From: Methylococcaceae bacterium
GTDB lineage: Bacteria; Pseudomonadota; Gammaproteobacteria; Methylococcales; Methylomonadaceae
DNA: 8,978 nt
Reading direction: 5' to 3'
Assembly (NCBI GenBank): GCA_947505055.1
Contig: CANNLO010000184.1
Location: 1 to 8,978, forward strand
Shown: one piece after another, positions 318 through 8,465 of the stretch
Layout of the letters: each line of letters begins with the position of its first letter
Position numbering within the stretch: position 1 is the first letter of the stretch
Program-made: the position numbers and the translations under genes
The notes under the pieces: model-generated
The model's database searches: none
What the model was told of the DNA's origin: nothing
The model's input: the letters and a program-made list of their open reading frames with translations, nothing else

Positions 318-477
318 TGGTAAAAATTATATCACAATAACTGACCGTACTAGTTTCAAAATCCTTAACGGGGTTTATATTCCGTTTCGTGCGTCGACCC
401 CTAAAAGAAATACCAGTAGATTCACCACTGGCAGCTTTAGAAAAGTCTAATCCCCATGTGCCTTCACCCACCATCAT
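304..477 (-). CDS. Small hypothetical protein, 57 aa, coupled to the ParA-like gene
   Basis: This frame starts at the ATG whose last bases form the TGA stop of the ParA-like gene (ATGA at 474-477), a classic translational coupling arrangement. It runs 57 codons to a TAA at 304-306, overlapping the first codons of the secreted-protein gene by 14 bases. Without it there would be a 156-base gap in an otherwise compact operon. The peptide has a basic stretch RGRRTKR at 26-32 and one Cys (C48), no signal peptide and no membrane segment. I do not recognise a family. It could be a nucleic-acid-binding accessory protein, or a chance ORF; the double overlap is the main evidence that it is real. Confidence 0.5.
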   Translation of the reverse strand: MMVGEGTWGLDFSKAASGESTGISFRGRRTKRNINPVKDFETSTVSYCDIIFTNESD

Positions 478-1250
478 TTCACCAGCGCCTGATACAACCT
501 TTCCACATCACCTTGCACCTGCCCTAACAGCGTTTTAACCACAATGCTGTGTTTCTGATTGAGAATGTCGCCTAATTTATTTTCTTTCAATAAACCAGCC
601 ATCACGCCCTTGTTGTCATAGATGGTCTTTAATTCCACCTCAATAATGTTGACCTGCTGATTTGAAGCAATAATTTCCATTAGCTCAACATACAAGTGGC
701 TCACTTCTGCATAGGTGCCAAGGTGCTTCATATAGCCAGTATTTTTCACCAGAATTAAATTGATAGGGTTGGTTAAAGTCACATCCGATATGGTGGCGTA
801 AATATCCTTAATTGACGTCATGGACTTGTCAGATACCACAGGAATAATCACATTCAGTTCAGCATCGTTATTTTCAAAAGCAGTGTAGAACAAATCTAAA
901 TCACCAAATATTCGCTGGGTTATATCAATAGACCTGGCAGGCAAGTCTAACAATACATAATCACAGTGGGTTTGAATGCTCTCTACAATAATGTCGTTGT
1001 CAGTTTCAATGTCAAACCTGTAGCACCCGTCTAGCGCATCATTAAGCCCAGTGAGATTGCCATGCTTGTCTTTTTTGCCATATTTTTTATACAAACTACG
1101 GTGGTCATTATCCCCGTCATATTTCGCTATTTTGAGACCCTTGCTTTCAAAGGCGTAGCAAATTTTATCTGCAATATCTGACTTGGTGGCTGAACCCTCA
1201 TTGGTGAGTAATATGTATATCTGCTTCCTCTTTAATGCTTCATTCATCAT
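474..1250 (-). CDS. ParA/TraL-like P-loop protein with degenerate Walker A
   Basis: This 258-residue protein has the layout of the SIMIBI (ParA/MinD/TraL) NTPases. A hydrophobic strand IYILLT (11-16) leads to NEGSATKS (17-24), where a ParA would have KGGxGK[S/T]. K23 and S24 are kept but the signature lysine and two glycines are replaced. YDGD (44-47) resembles the strand following helix 1 with its aspartates, YVLLDLPARS (98-107) is Walker B-like, and LILVKN (165-170) fits the late strand that usually ends in an asparagine. Such proteins act in plasmid partition or, as TraL, in conjugation. The altered P-loop means ATP hydrolysis is uncertain. An AGGAG lies at 1253-1257, only 2 bases from the first ATG but 5 from the second (1247), so the true start may be the second Met. 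It heads a three-gene operon. Confidence 0.6.
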   Translation of the reverse strand: MMNEALKRKQIYILLTNEGSATKSDIADKICYAFESKGLKIAKYDGDNDHRSLYKKYGKKDKHGNLTGLNDALDGCYRFDIETDNDIIVESIQTHCDYVLLDLPARSIDITQRIFGDLDLFYTAFENNDAELNVIIPVVSDKSMTSIKDIYATISDVTLTNPINLILVKNTGYMKHLGTYAEVSHLYVELMEIIASNQQVNIIEVELKTIYDNKGVMAGLLKENKLGDILNQKHSIVVKTLLGQVQGDVERLYQALVK

Positions 1251-2510: not shown

Positions 2511-3695
2511 TCAAATTTTACCCCCTGATTTTTTTGAGTCATTAGCCATTTGTGTTGGTGTGAGTGGAGGCACATCAAGCTTGGACATAAGATTATCAGC
2601 ACGTAATTTGGCTGTAAAAAATATCACTGGGTCCATGCTCCCAACCATACCTTTAAGTCTTTGACTCGCAGATTTCAACGCATTCACGTTTTTTTTAATT
2701 GCGGCCAAAACAACTTCTTCGTCATCTCTTAACCTATCTGATGCATAATGCAGTGCAGAGCTATATTGAGACGATGCTGAGTTTATAGCCGACAGCATGA
2801 AGTTTTTATCGTCCCGTAAAATGTCTGAGGCATATTGAAGGACTCCAACATCGCGCTCCGCCGCGACTAGAGCAATCTTTGCGTTATTTCTCAAATTTTC
2901 AGAAGCGTATTTAAACGAGTCGTAATTGGATTCCACTGCGGCTAACACGACGTCTTCATCAGCTCTTAAGCTCTCGGAGATAAACTCTAAGGAGGATTCA
3001 TATTGAGCCATTGCGGATAAGACGATTTCTTTATTGCCTCTTAATCGTTCTGAGGCATAATTTAGGTTCCAATGGTTTTGCTGAACGGCAACCAATGTAA
3101 TGGCATCATGATTCCTGAGTCTTTCCGACAAAAATTCAAAATTCCCACTTACCCTTGTCACAGCTTCTAATGCCAATGCTTCATTATCTCTTAGGCTCTC
3201 AGACACATATCTTAGAATGCATTTGTATTCATGATTATTCTTAAAATTGAGATTATGATGCTGGTTAGATTTAACAGCACTCATCACTAGGTCATAGTCA
3301 CCATTTAAAGCATCTGAAGCGAACGCCAACGCGCCGCTAAAAGTTTTGACAGAGGTGGCAACAATATCCGCATTATTTCTTAATCGGTCTGAGGCGAAGC
3401 CGAGGGCTTCACCATGTTTCTCAACGGCAGCCAAAACAATAGATTCATTGTCCCTTAATAGATCAGATGCATATTTCAGAGCAATTGGGTGATGCGAAAC
3501 TGCCTGCAACATAAATTCATGGTCGCCTTTTAATTCGTCGACTACATGCTTTAATGCATCAGCATTGCACTTTACGGCAAGCATCGCTATTTCCCTGTCG
3601 CTTGCATAAGCCTTCTGATTGGTGAATTTCACAAGTCCAATCTCACCTTTTTTCAAAATAGCTCTTCTTACACTTTCAAATTTCTTGTCGGTCAT
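2511..3695 (-). CDS. DUF4116 repeat protein, twelve 25-residue units
   Basis: Nearly the whole protein is a tandem repeat with the pattern ALxYASExLRxNxEIVLAAVxxN, matching the DUF4116 family, whose function is unknown. Counting from the first ATG at 3701, the conserved acidic residue of the ASD/ASE motif falls at 55, 80, 105, 130, 168, 193, 218, 243, 268, 293 and 322, with Q347 last. That is a strict 25-residue period broken by 13 extra residues between units 4 and 5 and 4 between units 10 and 11. An alpha-helical solenoid used for protein binding is likely (inference). AAGGGG at 3703-3708 sits 1 base from the first ATG but 7 from the third codon, so the start is placed at 3695. It is 33 bases downstream of the helicase gene and ends before the terminator at 2480-2497. 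Confidence 0.85.
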   Translation of the reverse strand: MTDKKFESVRRAILKKGEIGLVKFTNQKAYASDREIAMLAVKCNADALKHVVDELKGDHEFMLQAVSHHPIALKYASDLLRDNESIVLAAVEKHGEALGFASDRLRNNADIVATSVKTFSGALAFASDALNGDYDLVMSAVKSNQHHNLNFKNNHEYKCILRYVSESLRDNEALALEAVTRVSGNFEFLSERLRNHDAITLVAVQQNHWNLNYASERLRGNKEIVLSAMAQYESSLEFISESLRADEDVVLAAVESNYDSFKYASENLRNNAKIALVAAERDVGVLQYASDILRDDKNFMLSAINSASSQYSSALHYASDRLRDDEEVVLAAIKKNVNALKSASQRLKGMVGSMDPVIFFTAKLRADNLMSKLDVPPLTPTQMANDSKKSGGKI

Positions 3696-3702
3696 GCTCA
3701 TT

Positions 3703-3728: not shown

Positions 3729-5252
3729 TTATGCCTGTTTAAACAAACTCACCACAACATCGTTTTCGTCCACCTCAACCACATGGTCTGATTCTTCGTT
3801 GTATCCAAAGAACACCAGCTCAGGTGGGACATTTAATAAAAGCTCGGCAAATCGCTTCATGCCTTCTTTTCTGGAATTCAGTTGGTAATAATAGCCTAGC
3901 GTCTTATGTTTCCAGTTACTGCGCCAGTTTTTGTTGTCCTGTTTTTCGAAGCCGAAAGCTAGGCTGATTGTTTTACCGAAATCAGTCAGTGATGATGGAA
4001 ATCTAATTTTTTGGCTGTCACACCAGTTGAGATAGTCTTGATATAGGTGATTGCGGAACCAGCGGATTGCACCCGTGGCATTAAGTGTCACCTCTGTTCC
4101 AGATTCCAAGTTAATGTTCTTTCCCAACAAATCAATGATGAATTTGTTAGTAGGTGATAAGCTGCGGATCATTAAATCAACACGAGCATGTGTGACTGGG
4201 AAATTGCGGGGGTTGAATTCGCTAATATCTCGGCTTGTTAGCTCAAACATAAGGGCTTCAATGCCACCTGATGTAAGCCATTGGTTGTAGGTGCTAAAGA
4301 ACTGCCCTGGCTCTGTTTGACCTTTATATCTCGCATCACAATCCACCACAAAAAATCTTCTATCACCTTCACCGACTGGAATTACCCAGTCTTCATTGGA
4401 TGCGACAAATAATCGCTTGTAATTTCTCACCTGAATGGCGGTGCGGTTTTTATCGTTAATCATGACATACGGTTCCGTAATCATGGCTTTAAGTGTGCCT
4501 TCGGCTGATTTGTCCCCGCCCCATATGGCCTCATCGGCAAACACAATATAAGCATCAAGTAGGTGGCCATTAAAATTTCCGACTAAGGCATAACTGGAAG
4601 AGAGGTGTTTGTAGTTGTCGGTTAAGTAGGACAAAGTTTTCATGAGCGTGCCCTTTCCACAACCTTGGGGACCTCGCAAAATAATTGCCGTCTCTGGGAT
4701 AGAAAATGCCTGTTGCACCAAATGTGCGAGGAAGTTCATCATATAGTCGATAGATTTGGCATCATCACAACATAAGGCTGCTATTAACTGATTGAACGGG
4801 GTTATATCGCCTTGTTTCGGCGTGACTCTAAAACCACTCCATAGATTCCAGTATTTGTTGCTGATGTTGGCTGACGGTGACGGGTCAAATATGATGCCTT
4901 CATAGCGGGTCGTGTCTTTGCTCTCAATGAACAATTTTGATATCAGAACCTTCTTGGGTTCAGCTTTACCCTTTGCAGGCAAATAGTGAAATTTGTGTGC
5001 ATGAAAGGTGTGGAAGTCGGGGATATTCTGGAATTCCAATACATCCTGCTCACGGTCTTTCCAACAAACATAGGTTTTGCCTGAACGATTGATGATGGAA
5101 TATTTTGCTTGGAATGCCTTCAAGTCCTTGTAGATGGCTATCTCTAATGTCGTATTGGCATGGAGTAGTTCAAATGGATTGAAAGTCTCTGAGTTAATCT
5201 CAGTATTTTGGTCAGCCGTGCGCGTAGCGCTGATGTTTAGCTCTTTTTTCAT
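3729..5252 (-). CDS. SF3 / P4-type replicative helicase (DUF5906-like)
   Basis: This is a superfamily 3 DNA helicase of the phage/plasmid primase-helicase group. Visible motifs in order are YWNLWSGF (134-141), typical of the domain just before the ATPase; Walker A GPQGCGKGT (194-202); Walker B IVFADEA (236-242); motif C/sensor LFVASNED (281-288); and the arginine finger region GDRRFF (296-301). SF3 enzymes form hexamers that unwind an origin and drive replication of phages, satellites and plasmids. At 507 residues it lacks the N-terminal primase catalytic domain and zinc finger of P4 alpha-type proteins, so a primase must be supplied by the host or elsewhere on the element. AAGGA at 5260-5264 is 7 bases from the ATG, supporting this start. 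It is first in an operon with the DUF4116 gene. Confidence 0.9.
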   Translation of the reverse strand: MKKELNISATRTADQNTEINSETFNPFELLHANTTLEIAIYKDLKAFQAKYSIINRSGKTYVCWKDREQDVLEFQNIPDFHTFHAHKFHYLPAKGKAEPKKVLISKLFIESKDTTRYEGIIFDPSPSANISNKYWNLWSGFRVTPKQGDITPFNQLIAALCCDDAKSIDYMMNFLAHLVQQAFSIPETAIILRGPQGCGKGTLMKTLSYLTDNYKHLSSSYALVGNFNGHLLDAYIVFADEAIWGGDKSAEGTLKAMITEPYVMINDKNRTAIQVRNYKRLFVASNEDWVIPVGEGDRRFFVVDCDARYKGQTEPGQFFSTYNQWLTSGGIEALMFELTSRDISEFNPRNFPVTHARVDLMIRSLSPTNKFIIDLLGKNINLESGTEVTLNATGAIRWFRNHLYQDYLNWCDSQKIRFPSSLTDFGKTISLAFGFEKQDNKNWRSNWKHKTLGYYYQLNSRKEGMKRFAELLLNVPPELVFFGYNEESDHVVEVDENDVVVSLFKQA

Positions 5253-5402: not shown

Positions 5403-6014
5403 TTAATGCACCACTGCGTTTTCTGTAGTGAGTGCCATGTACAAATCTTGTGCAAGCTGCTCATCTATCAACAAAGACTCCTCTATTTGAGGCTTATGAA
5501 AAAAATCATCATGCACCAAATAAATTAAGGCTCCATTTACTTCACCGCTACAAAATCCAAGTGTTTTATAGTAATGAACATTAAGTTCAGCTCTTTCAAT
5601 CTCCAATAAAATGGCTATCACATTGTAATTTTCGATTGCCAACTTTAATGCTTCACGAAACACTCCTTTTCCACGATAAGCAGCCTTAACAAATGCTTCG
5701 CTAACACAGTAAGCAGATTCATAAGGTGTTTCTGTTAATCTCATATAACCTACTTCTTTTTTACCTACACGAATAACTATAAAAATAGCATTCAATCTAA
5801 GTGAACGAAGATCATGGTGATCGATAGCACCGTCATAGTGTTGTAAAAATAAATTATTCCATTTCTTTTGTTCTGCATGTTTAGTAATCACTTTTAAAGT
5901 AATCTTGGAATCATCATTTCCTCCAATTCCATTTAACGATTTAACTGATGGAATCATACTTTCTAAATATGATAGTGATTTCTTAATCATGTAATCTGGT
6001 AGTTGTGTGTTCAT
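5403..6014 (-). CDS. GNAT-family N-acetyltransferase
   Basis: This 203-residue protein has the GNAT fold signature. Strands around 75-93 (AIFIVIRVGKKEVGYMRL) and 101-110 lead to the acetyl-CoA pyrophosphate loop YRGKGVF (113-119), followed by helix REALKLAIENY (120-130), and then NVHYYKTLGF (145-154), the usual late helix with the Tyr-containing GF ending. It transfers an acetyl group from acetyl-CoA to an unknown amine. AGGAG at 6022-6026 lies 7 bases from the ATG at 6014; an in-frame ATG at 6053 would overlap the upstream gene and has no such site, so 6014 is chosen. The C-terminal 30 or so residues extend past the fold and are acidic. Placed just after a 66-codon gene, it could be the toxin of a GNAT-type toxin-antitoxin pair, but the substrate is not predictable. 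Confidence 0.8.
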   Translation of the reverse strand: MNTQLPDYMIKKSLSYLESMIPSVKSLNGIGGNDDSKITLKVITKHAEQKKWNNLFLQHYDGAIDHHDLRSLRLNAIFIVIRVGKKEVGYMRLTETPYESAYCVSEAFVKAAYRGKGVFREALKLAIENYNVIAILLEIERAELNVHYYKTLGFCSGEVNGALIYLVHDDFFHKPQIEESLLIDEQLAQDLYMALTTENAVVH

Positions 6015-6021
6015 TTTATTT

Positions 6022-6026
6022 CTCCT
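6022..6026 (-). promoter_or_regulatory. Ribosome binding site that decides the GNAT start
   Basis: AGGAG on the minus strand sits 7 bases before the ATG at 6014 and downstream of the alternative ATG at 6053, so it fixes the start at 6014. Confidence 0.75.
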
Positions 6027-6043
6027 GTTTATTGATAATGTTG

Positions 6044-6244
6044 TTAATGCCAATGGCTATCTCTATATTCCTGACTCTCAGCTATTTCGAAAAAATTCTT
6101 ATAGTCGCCTGAATTTTCAAGCTCTTCAAATTTATCTATTTCGTCAAATTCATCATTAGTATAATAAAAGTCACGACCTTCATTAATGCAGGCATTACTT
6201 ATTGCGCCGACATTATTATTTACTTTAGTTTTATTTTTATTCAT
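6044..6244 (-). CDS. Small acidic hypothetical protein, 66 aa
   Basis: AAGGAA at 6251-6256 is 6 bases from the ATG at 6244, and the stop lies 29 bases before the acetyltransferase start, so the two are almost certainly co-transcribed. The N-terminal 20 residues are polar with Lys and Asn; the middle and C-terminal parts are strongly acidic (NDEFDEIDKFEELENSGDY at 30-48) with scattered aromatics. No ribbon-helix-helix pattern of the usual GNAT antitoxins is seen and I recognise no family. An acidic small partner upstream of an enzyme fits an antitoxin-like or DNA-mimic role, but that is inference from size, charge and order only. It is the first gene leftward from the palindromic box array. 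Confidence 0.65.
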   Translation of the reverse strand: MNKNKTKVNNNVGAISNACINEGRDFYYTNDEFDEIDKFEELENSGDYKNFFEIAESQEYRDSHWH

Positions 6245-6325
6245 TTCAATTTCCTTTATTTAACAAGTTGTTTATAAGTTATTTTTTTGTAAAACTTTAT
6301 TGTAACATTTCATTTATTTTTAATA

Positions 6326-6353
6326 TGTGTAGTGATTTTGACTTTCCTACACA
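6326..6353. repeat. Palindromic box 1
   Basis: The left arm is TGTGTAGT and the right arm CCTACACA, separated by 12 bases beginning GATTTTG. Seven of eight arm positions are complementary. It is nearest to the 66-aa gene, about 80 bases upstream of its start. Confidence 0.75.
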
Positions 6354-6436
6354 ATAATTAGAACTCCTTACTCTTCAATTCGCCTATTAATATTGCGTCT
6401 TAAAACAAAATTTTATCATTTCCATATTATTTTATC

Positions 6437-6464
6437 TGTGTAGTGATTTTGCATTTACCACACA
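6437..6464. repeat. Palindromic box 2
   Basis: TGTGTAGT and ACCACACA arms flank the same 12-base spacer pattern; one arm mismatch. It starts exactly 111 bases after box 1. Confidence 0.75.
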
Positions 6465-6547
6465 ATAATTAGAACTTCTTACTCTTCAATCCTCCTATTA
6501 AGATTGCGTCTTAAAACAAAATTTTATCATTCACACATTTTTTAATA

Positions 6548-6575
6548 TGTGTAGTGATTTTGCATTTACTACACA
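6548..6575. repeat. Palindromic box 3, perfect arms
   Basis: TGTGTAGT and ACTACACA are perfectly complementary with a 12-base spacer. It starts exactly 111 bases after box 2. Confidence 0.8.
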
Positions 6576-6657
6576 ATTAATATATCAATACGCTCTTTAA
6601 TTTCCTTATTGCGTTAATCATTAAAGTGGCATTTCTTCGCTTACTTTTTTTAAAGTA

Positions 6658-6685
6658 TGTGTAGTAAAATCATGATTACTACCTA
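6658..6685. repeat. Palindromic box 4, degenerate right arm
   Basis: TGTGTAGT is intact; the right arm is ACTACCTA, matching at six of eight positions, with the same 12-base spacer length but a different spacer sequence centred on TCATGA. It starts 110 bases after box 3 and ends 19 bases before the GTG of the 356-aa gene, so bound protein would cover that gene's ribosome or promoter region. Confidence 0.65.
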
Positions 6686-6704
6686 AATTTTAAAAGAGAT
6701 ATAC

Positions 6705-7775
6705 GTGTCATCAGAAACAGAAAAGTCCGAGGTGATACCCAAGGCGACGAGGTATGTTTCACCGTTAGATGAGTTTGAAAAACTTCCAGTATTGGTCTGG
6801 TTTAAGTATCTGCTTAATAGAACTGGCACATATGTCGCCGATGAGAAAGGTAAAATTTCTACCAAAAAGTTTGGTGCGTGGATTCAGGCTAATGAAATCA
6901 ACAGTGCCCCCTTGCCGCTGCAAAGTTCTAGGTGGTCAGAATATATCAATGGGAAAAGGTGTCCTTCCGAGCTTATGCTTTCTAACATGGATAAAATTAT
7001 CCCAGGCTCTTCAATCGTTTATTCGAATGGTGATGAAACACTGCCTTTATGGAGTGTTTTACGCGCCGTTACTCAATACTGGGATTTAAAGGAATTGGCT
7101 GAGGAGAAGTTAGCTAAGACGAATCCACCTTCACCCCAAGGTGAGGTTCAAGCGTTGAGCAGAGTTGAGGAGAAAAAATTAGACACTAAAATCATTAATG
7201 AGAAATTGATAGCCAAGAAAAAGAAGGCTGAAAAAGACAGAATAAAAGCGGCTGATTATTTAGTTTGTGAAAAACTTGTGAATGAAGTGTTGGGTGAGTA
7301 TGAGGTACTTAGTCAGACAATGACAAATGCAGACAAGTGTATGCAGATGTGTTTTTTGTCAATGAATGCCCCTTTGGGTAAAGAGTTTTATGAACACACC
7401 AAGCAATACAGCGGCGATATTGAACATATGCTTGTTTCGTTGCCAAACAAGATTGCTGATAGCTTTGAGGCAGGCTGTAAGATGTTTGAAGAAAATGGTT
7501 TTAAGTTTTCGTTGAAACACCCAATTTACTTTAATGCTGAAACAAATCGACCGCAGCGTTTGCTAGATGATTATAAGATTTTAAATAAGAAGTTAGTCTT
7601 ATCAATTATTGCATTGAGTCATATATGCTTACCCAGCGACGACAAGAGAGTGAAGCCACTGATTGACTATATGTTGGAAGGCATTACTGCTGGCGCTGTT
7701 GAATATCACTTTGGAAAGGATGTTAGTGATTTTTATGAAAATCCTGTGATTATTGAGCCACCTCTAGTGGGATAG
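6705..7775 (+). CDS. Hypothetical protein, 356 aa, possible DNA-binding N-terminus
   Basis: This is the only rightward gene. It starts at a GTG preceded by AAAGAGA at 6693-6699; no better in-frame start is near. Residues 50-101 contain KKFGAWIQANEI and then RWSEYINGKRCPSELMLSNM and IPGS, which resembles the recognition helix and W-x-x-Y-x-x-G pattern of XRE-like helix-turn-helix proteins; this is by eye and tentative. Residues 151-190 are Lys/Glu-rich and probably a coiled coil (AKKKKAEKDRIKAA). The C-terminal 170 residues are mixed alpha-helical with Cys 212, 216, 258 and 308. No enzyme motif is visible. Its position next to box 4 suggests it either binds the array, as an autoregulator or partition-like protein, or is controlled by it. 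I do not recognise a named family. Confidence 0.75.
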   Translation: MSSETEKSEVIPKATRYVSPLDEFEKLPVLVWFKYLLNRTGTYVADEKGKISTKKFGAWIQANEINSAPLPLQSSRWSEYINGKRCPSELMLSNMDKIIPGSSIVYSNGDETLPLWSVLRAVTQYWDLKELAEEKLAKTNPPSPQGEVQALSRVEEKKLDTKIINEKLIAKKKKAEKDRIKAADYLVCEKLVNEVLGEYEVLSQTMTNADKCMQMCFLSMNAPLGKEFYEHTKQYSGDIEHMLVSLPNKIADSFEAGCKMFEENGFKFSLKHPIYFNAETNRPQRLLDDYKILNKKLVLSIIALSHICLPSDDKRVKPLIDYMLEGITAGAVEYHFGKDVSDFYENPVIIEPPLVG

Positions 7776-7783
7776 TCCACTAG
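7764..7783. terminator. Possible bidirectional terminator between convergent genes
   Basis: CTAGTGG (7764-7770) and CCACTAG (7777-7783) form a perfect 7-base stem around a 6-base loop that holds the TAG stop of the 356-aa gene. It is the only strong hairpin in the short gap between two convergent genes, but neither strand has a T-run after it, so termination is uncertain. Confidence 0.35.
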
Positions 7784-7811
7784 GGATTAATATTACAGAA
7801 GACTCCTGAGA

Positions 7812-8465
7812 TTAAGCCTTCGGCAACTCACTAATTTTAAGTTTTTGGTTGGCAGCAAAGGCAACAATAGCCTCTAACTCTTTAATCCCCTCTGGTGTAG
7901 CTAGGTAAGCTGTGGCCTCTTCTTTGTTTTCTTCGCTGATATAGGCTTTCAATGAATCTATCGACCCAGCAATTTCTAATAATGTATCGGGCATGTTTTG
8001 GAATGGTTTTTGATTGATTGAATTTCTATTGGCTAGGTTTGTTGGCTCATATATACGACCCTGATTGTAGTTATAGCCTGGCGTCCTTGGATCCCTAGTC
8101 GCGTTTACTTTAATCAAAGTGATTGCAGCGTCACTTGCGCGAGATGACTTATCTGTAGCAGTGTCTGCTGAGGAGGCTTTAGCTTTCTTTACTTTATCAA
8201 CAACAAGACCAGTAATTTTCACAAGCTCGTCAATTGTGTAAATCTCGGTTAACGATAAGCCGAATGAAGCTATTTCTTCTTTTATTCTTTTGGCTTCTGC
8301 CCCACGACTCTCAATAATTGCTGCCTTCTCTACACGTAGTTTTTGCAGGTCATCATGATCTTCCAGTGTATCGACATCTTCGTTTATCTTTAATTTCAGT
8401 AAACCAATTTTATCGTCAATCTGTTTTATTCTTTGTTGTGGCGTTACATTCGTTTCTGCATTCAT
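7812..8465 (-). CDS. Coiled-coil protein, 217 aa, very loosely H-NS-like
   Basis: The first 68 residues are charged with a heptad-like pattern and end in IKEEIASFGLSLTEI (61-75), which resembles the end of the H-NS dimerisation helix and its FGL/YGL-S-x-x-D/E turn. A polar linker follows (95-115, rich in Ala, Ser, Lys and Asp). RDPRTPGYNYNQGRIYEP at 124-141 loosely recalls the H-NS DNA-binding loop (YRDPxTGxxWSGRGRxP) but lacks the tryptophan and the GRGR core. The C-terminal 60 residues are helical and not H-NS-like. It may be a nucleoid-type accessory protein of the element, or something unrelated with a coiled coil. The ATG at 8465 has a weak TAGGT upstream. It converges with the 356-aa gene and follows the ankyrin gene after an 89-base gap with a hairpin. 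Confidence 0.65.
   Translation of the reverse strand: MNAETNVTPQQRIKQIDDKIGLLKLKINEDVDTLEDHDDLQKLRVEKAAIIESRGAEAKRIKEEIASFGLSLTEIYTIDELVKITGLVVDKVKKAKASSADTATDKSSRASDAAITLIKVNATRDPRTPGYNYNQGRIYEPTNLANRNSINQKPFQNMPDTLLEIAGSIDSLKAYISEENKEEATAYLATPEGIKELEAIVAFAANQKLKISELPKA

Follow-up and report, generated by a model that had tools for sequence, protein, structure and literature searches.

In a probable mobile element, divergently oriented genes are separated by a stretch of DNA in which four palindromic boxes follow one another at nearly even distances. Which protein reads these boxes, and why are there several of them? The DNA analysed is a stretch of 8,978 nt (hereafter the window). A first-pass annotation of this sequence had offered a partition site, a looping operator for the divergent genes and a replication-control site as possible roles, and had taken the boxes together with their spacing to be under selection. 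In this study, we compared the window with related elements and weighed these roles against each other.

Results

Box array and gene organization of the window

The pattern TGTGTAGT-N12-ACTACACA, with up to three mismatches allowed, has exactly four matches in the window, whereas 0.03 are expected per window from dinucleotide-preserving shuffles, and 0/200 shuffles reached four matches (Table 1). The four 28-bp palindromic boxes of the first-pass annotation, at steps of 111, 111 and 110 bp, were thereby confirmed, as was their common left arm, which is conserved at 8/8 positions in every box. The right arm is perfect in box 3 only; box 4 shares it in part and has a deviating core (4/12 positions matching the other boxes). 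Box 1 is 222 bp from box 3 and box 2 is 221 bp from box 4, in both cases ~21 helical turns. No promoter-like site was found among the boxes.

Table 1. Coordinates of the boxes, the spacers and the genes discussed in the text (positions in the window).
Feature	Position	Strand	Description
Box 1	6326..6353	+	TGTGTAGT-N12-CCTACACA; 1 mismatch
Spacer 1	6354..6436		83 bp; matches spacer 2 at 73/83
Box 2	6437..6464	+	TGTGTAGT-N12-ACCACACA; 1 mismatch
Spacer 2	6465..6547		83 bp; tandem duplicate of spacer 1
Box 3	6548..6575	+	TGTGTAGT-N12-ACTACACA, perfect palindromic arms; 0 mismatches
Spacer 3	6576..6657		82 bp; likeness to spacers 1 and 2 scarcely above shuffles
Box 4	6658..6685	+	TGTGTAGT-N12-ACTACCTA, unlike core; 2 mismatches
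356-aa protein, proposed repressor	6705..7775	+	Predicted helical N-terminal domain
66-aa ORF, first divergent gene	6044..6244	-	No family found
GNAT acetyltransferase, second divergent gene	5403..6014	-	Acetyltransf_7 4.9e-6; start is the ATG at 6014
DUF5906 helicase-like replication protein (Rep)	3729..5252	-	DUF5906 5.9e-22; also phage primase families
ParA-like ATPase	474..1250	-	Weak matches, under Pfam cut-offs
217-aa protein	7812..8465	-	Within the block exchanged in L002

Spacers 1 and 2 give an alignment score of 63 (shuffle maximum 19), and TRF reports a tandem repeat of period 111 with 2.4 copies that encloses boxes 1 to 3. Because these two spacers are identical at 73/83 positions, the 111-bp pitch stems partly from tandem duplication. 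In alignments with spacer 1 and with spacer 2, spacer 3 scores 13.0 and 14.5, respectively, where shuffles reach at most 13.5 and 12.5; it might be either an old, decayed copy or unrelated DNA. The claim that the boxes were kept while the spacers diverged is reasonable for boxes 3 and 4, with intact left arms and a spacer near shuffle level between them. By sequence, the array resembles an old series of duplications that retained the arms.

The boxes fill the 460 bp that separate the 356-aa gene from the divergent gene set. Box 4 is separated from the GTG of the former by 19 bp, box 1 from the start codon of the 66-aa ORF by 81 bp. The divergent set comprises the 66-aa ORF, the GNAT acetyltransferase and the DUF5906 Rep, followed by DUF4116, 247-aa and ParA-like genes. 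A 396-aa protein (2511-3701) is built of DUF4116 repeats (8 stretches). The 356-aa protein has no match in Pfam or PHROG, and its family profile gave no match in the PDB up to E 5. In structure predictions, the N-terminal folds bear a weak likeness to lambda cI-type N-terminal domains. A full-length likeness to the ComR/Rgg/PrgX peptide receptors in the Foldseek list was rejected as too weak (TM about 0.25).

Block exchange in the closest related element found

The closest genome locus found, L002, lies on a 463-kb contig of a Methylophilaceae MAG. It is an integrated chromosomal element that encodes a tyrosine integrase and has a 53-bp repeat (96%) with copies about 37.4 kb apart, an intact tRNA-Lys being located at the far copy. 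TrwC relaxase (9.7e-8), the coupling protein TrwB_AAD_bind (5.6e-43) and ArdC are also encoded. The integrase and the attachment repeats at a tRNA, combined with relaxase and coupling protein, identify L002 as an integrative mobilizable element. The last gene of the window (weak ankyrin match) is cut at the window end, and its counterpart in L002 adjoins the integrase. Since the window ends before this integrase position, its own integrated state is something that we infer from L002.

The flanks of the array block are similar in window and L002, its interior is not. The ParA-like protein is 100% identical, the 247-aa protein 98%, the DUF4116 protein 98.5% and Rep 90%. Inside the block, a 357-aa homologue (25% identical by tblastn, 30% in the 11-locus comparison described below) replaces the 356-aa protein, and the boxes of the window are absent. 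L002 has an array of its own instead, an exact 11-mer in three copies at 124 and 124 bp, the nearest of which lies 18 bp before the start of the homologue. This repeat is barely palindromic, and its palindrome score did not beat all shuffles. As L002 keeps the ParA-like protein and Rep and swaps the block, the boxes appear to follow the 356-aa family and not ParA or Rep, and their spacing appears to be free.

The 356-aa family and its upstream regions

The family was reached through Rep relatives; neither a single-sequence viral scan nor scans of genomes and viruses with a three-sequence alignment returned relatives of the 356-aa protein. By tblastn and profile search (E <= 0.001), homologues were detected in 10/187 genomes of the L002 family (Methylophilaceae) and in 18/392 genomes drawn from the Undibacterium family, four already known ones included. 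Plasmid and phage records contained no 356-aa relative at E 0.01, and plasmids no ParA-like protein at 1e-5; the Rep relatives in plasmid and phage records are <60% identical. The family gene lies beside Rep in 5/8 loci of the Rep clade (L002-L009), and Pfam detected a divergent DUF5906 gene in 4/4 loci reached via the family gene (L143, L152, L153 and L154), while L157 had no match to the Rep profile.

Among the loci examined, 13 have E <= 1e-25. Two of them (L155 and L156) encode truncated homologues with an incomplete N-terminal half, and the comparison of proteins and upstream regions was made with 11 loci, these two excluded. The start of the L004 gene was placed at ATG 8192, not at the first GTG of the ORF, by likeness to relatives. 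In one scoring scheme, 4/11 upstream regions reached a score of >=16 compared with 1/275 random segments, and each of these four beat all 20 of its shuffles. An exact 11-mer repeated three times was present in 3/11 upstream regions and in 0/1100 control segments. A further 18 distant homologues were covered by the shuffle test of upstream regions only.

Palindromic sites are present in the divergent control region of the regulator in the window, L005, L006, L143 and L152. Three palindromes at 95/91 bp are present in L006 and L152, which are closely related and belong to the Undibacterium family. L005, from the same family, has two at 173 bp inside a duplicated stretch. In this locus (8083-8438), the repeated stretch, at 173-178 bp, takes in a box, the ribosome-binding region and the beginning of the following gene, perhaps a young stage of array growth. 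L143 has a single palindrome 24 bp before the gene, with arms similar to those of the window; its divergent operon (6151-8281) is headed by two DNA methylase genes and a GNAT gene. L003, L004, L153 and L154 have a compact upstream region of about 135-150 bp, in which a common GTTwTGCCArAACG stretch was recognized by eye. These four and L157 did not pass the array test, and a box matrix derived from L006 and L152 was not significant at this stretch and failed elsewhere.

In general, the related elements keep the gene layout. Where boxes are present, their sequence, their pitch and their number (1 to 4) vary from element to element. Relatives with 124/124, 95/91 or 173 bp, with single boxes or with no visible array lend no support to selection on the spacing. 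Helical phasing was also considered as a rule and rejected, as the pitches correspond to 10.6, 11.8, 9.05/8.7 and 16.5 turns (10.5 bp/turn) and have no common phase.

In the five genomes searched for their respective box patterns (G005, G549, G001, G071 and G004), these occur solely upstream of the family gene; the pattern used for L002 covers 2/3 of its copies. When the arm pattern of the window was sought in the 187 genomes of the L002 family (<=1 mismatch), one isolated site was detected (G159), which is chance level as the reversed-pattern control matched in 3 genomes. In IMG/VR, the strict box pattern had 0 matches. A pattern of three left arms matched 9 contigs, and no palindrome was seen by eye in the stretches viewed; 7/9 matches lie in long open frames, those in L169 and L170 outside such frames. 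Of 90 viral loci, 80 were compared with the window by BLAST alone. Homologous elements without the boxes or with other spacings (L002 and the Undibacterium-family loci) do exist, a finding that, by the criterion of the first-pass annotation itself, refutes a conserved spaced element.

Exchange between the halves of the 356-aa protein family

The L154 protein shares 89% identity with that of L004 over the N half but 51% over the C half; the corresponding values for L006 are 35% and 80%. Judging from these mosaics, the N- and C-terminal halves recombine. The control region travels with the N half, because L154 has upstream DNA of the type seen in L004; that both go together may be due to linkage, as they are adjacent. 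Another homologue, P0002, agrees almost completely with the window protein (P0001) in the first ~200 and the last ~28 residues and differs at about 200-327, which suggests an exchange of the inner region.

Discussion

The position of the boxes in the intergenic region shared by the 356-aa gene and the divergent operon, where several relatives have repeats of their own, supports the proposal of an operator for the divergent genes. With a probability of about 0.7, we consider the boxes to be operators through which the adjacent 356-aa repressor would keep an integrated mobile element silent. That the boxes serve as operators of this protein at all is likely, and that the protein controls the replication operon through them appears reasonably probable. 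A dimer would bind each palindrome via the N-terminal helical domain. Box 4, right before the start codon of the repressor gene, would mediate autorepression by blocking the own promoter, and box 1, closest to the divergent genes, would repress the replication operon. Additional boxes may have arisen by tandem duplication and might strengthen repression by cooperative binding or looping, although looping between the boxes on its own is somewhat doubtful. The variable C-terminal half potentially senses an inducer, and a signal on this half would allow the element to excise and replicate.

Repeats at regular distances are a common feature of some centromeres, and the element encodes a ParA-like protein, if only by a weak match. 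The array might thus be a partition site bound by an adaptor that works with this ATPase. However, the ParA-like protein is unchanged in L002, where the boxes are absent, and this disfavours the partition reading. Moreover, among 110 loci the ParA-like protein matched L002 alone (tblastn E <= 1e-3), so that L005 and L006 have arrays but no ParA-like match in the DNA examined; this role is very unlikely. Similar arguments apply to a replication origin in which the DUF5906 Rep would bind the boxes as iterons. The gene for Rep is close by, origins usually contain AT-rich repeats, a repressor array could overlap an origin, and the L002 Rep does differ in 10% of its residues. Nevertheless, a Rep that is 90% identical is retained in L002 in the absence of the boxes, which disfavours a Rep-bound origin as the replication-control site. 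In L003-L006, Rep is 55-56% identical to that of the window, yet the boxes are unlike those of the window and L003 and L004 have no array; we regard this role as quite unlikely.

The repeats could also be a passive product of tandem duplication, in which a single operator near a promoter would be all that functions. The high identity of spacers 1 and 2, the location of both L005 boxes in a duplicated segment, and several relatives that presumably work with one or zero visible box all fit this explanation. It does not account for the kept arms of boxes 3 and 4 next to a near-random spacer 3, nor for the unlike multi-copy arrays in at least three family branches (window; L002; L006/L152) with 0/1100 controls alike, and we consider it unlikely. 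Stem-loops acting at the RNA level in a leader are conceivable in so far as 8-base arms and a 12-base loop could pair in RNA. But Rfam has no match within the window, no terminator-like site is present in 6000-6900, and the arms of box 4 are mostly kept around a different core, which suits a dimer site; an RNA element is therefore hardly credible.

As a role, the proposed 356-aa repressor parallels the Stl repressors of SaPI islands (PMC6695447). No sequence relation is detectable, the arrays described here have up to four boxes at about 100-bp pitch, and the L002 element, in contrast to SaPI, carries conjugation-type genes. On the conjugative plasmid pLS20, the HTH repressor Rco acts at divergent promoters through multiple sites, with two operators 75 bp apart that are looped (PMC4207663). 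The proposed repressor likewise would control a mobile element from multiple sites at divergent promoters; Rco, however, has sites made of an 8-bp motif that is clustered in two operators (PMC4207663), whereas here single 28-bp palindromes lie at 111 bp and may or may not be looped. The same study describes ImmR, the element repressor of ICEBs1, which has six binding regions, grouped in threes near its two promoters (PMC4207663). Its host is unrelated, and it is likened here by role, not by site spacing or sequence.

In cluster A mycobacteriophages, repressor and sites vary together among related phages, resulting in separate specificities (PMC6550527). The 20 to 30 stoperators of these phages are genome-wide, while the boxes occur at one place per genome in the five genomes searched. 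As the C-terminal half of cluster A repressors also affects site specificity (PMC6550527), caution is needed before the boxes are assigned solely to the N half. In Gram-negative PICIs, the replication genes are taken to include those for DUF5906 proteins (PMC10111431). The elements described here resemble PICIs as integrated islands with an integrase zone and a DUF5906 replication zone; unlike PICIs, they have no AlpA or Bro by Pfam in the window and L002 proteins scanned, and L002 has relaxase and coupling protein. We recognized no paper on the 356-aa family or the array in a literature search that was not exhaustive, and absence from print is not claimed.

An unexplained repeat array becomes here a testable regulator-operator pair in little-known integrative elements of Methylophilaceae and Undibacterium. 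The relatives form a natural series, from no visible array to four boxes, with 91 to 173 bp pitch, unlike boxes and halves exchanged separately. With this series one can ask what makes repressors acquire operator arrays and how new specificities and their sites arise together. It is tempting to speculate, although we hold it to be improbable as a whole, that in this repressor family the DNA-reading and sensing halves are exchanged separately, and that each new specificity brings a multi-site array, grown through tandem duplication with an unconstrained pitch of about 90-175 bp, on which a higher-order assembly locks the replication operon and defines an own immunity group.

Several other features of these elements were observed. 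Within the exchanged block of L002 (5989-6604), two small ORFs resemble by eye a HigBA-type toxin-antitoxin pair, and metal-efflux-like genes were recognized, also by eye, inside the element (15872-18407). Between relaxase and coupling protein of the same element (L181; G001:C2:133000-152500) lies a SMODS nucleotidyltransferase gene (1e-16), possibly involved in defence. In the window, CGTAGAACC repeats in both orientations occur at 1394-1651, between the ParA-like and 247-aa genes, and also at 2451-2460. GCGTAGAACC, with <=2 mismatches, has 11 matches in the window compared with 3.45 expected window-wide, and 6 of them lie in the CGTAGAACC repeat region. These repeats are within a stretch that is 99% identical in L002, and qualify better than the boxes as a candidate origin or partition site.
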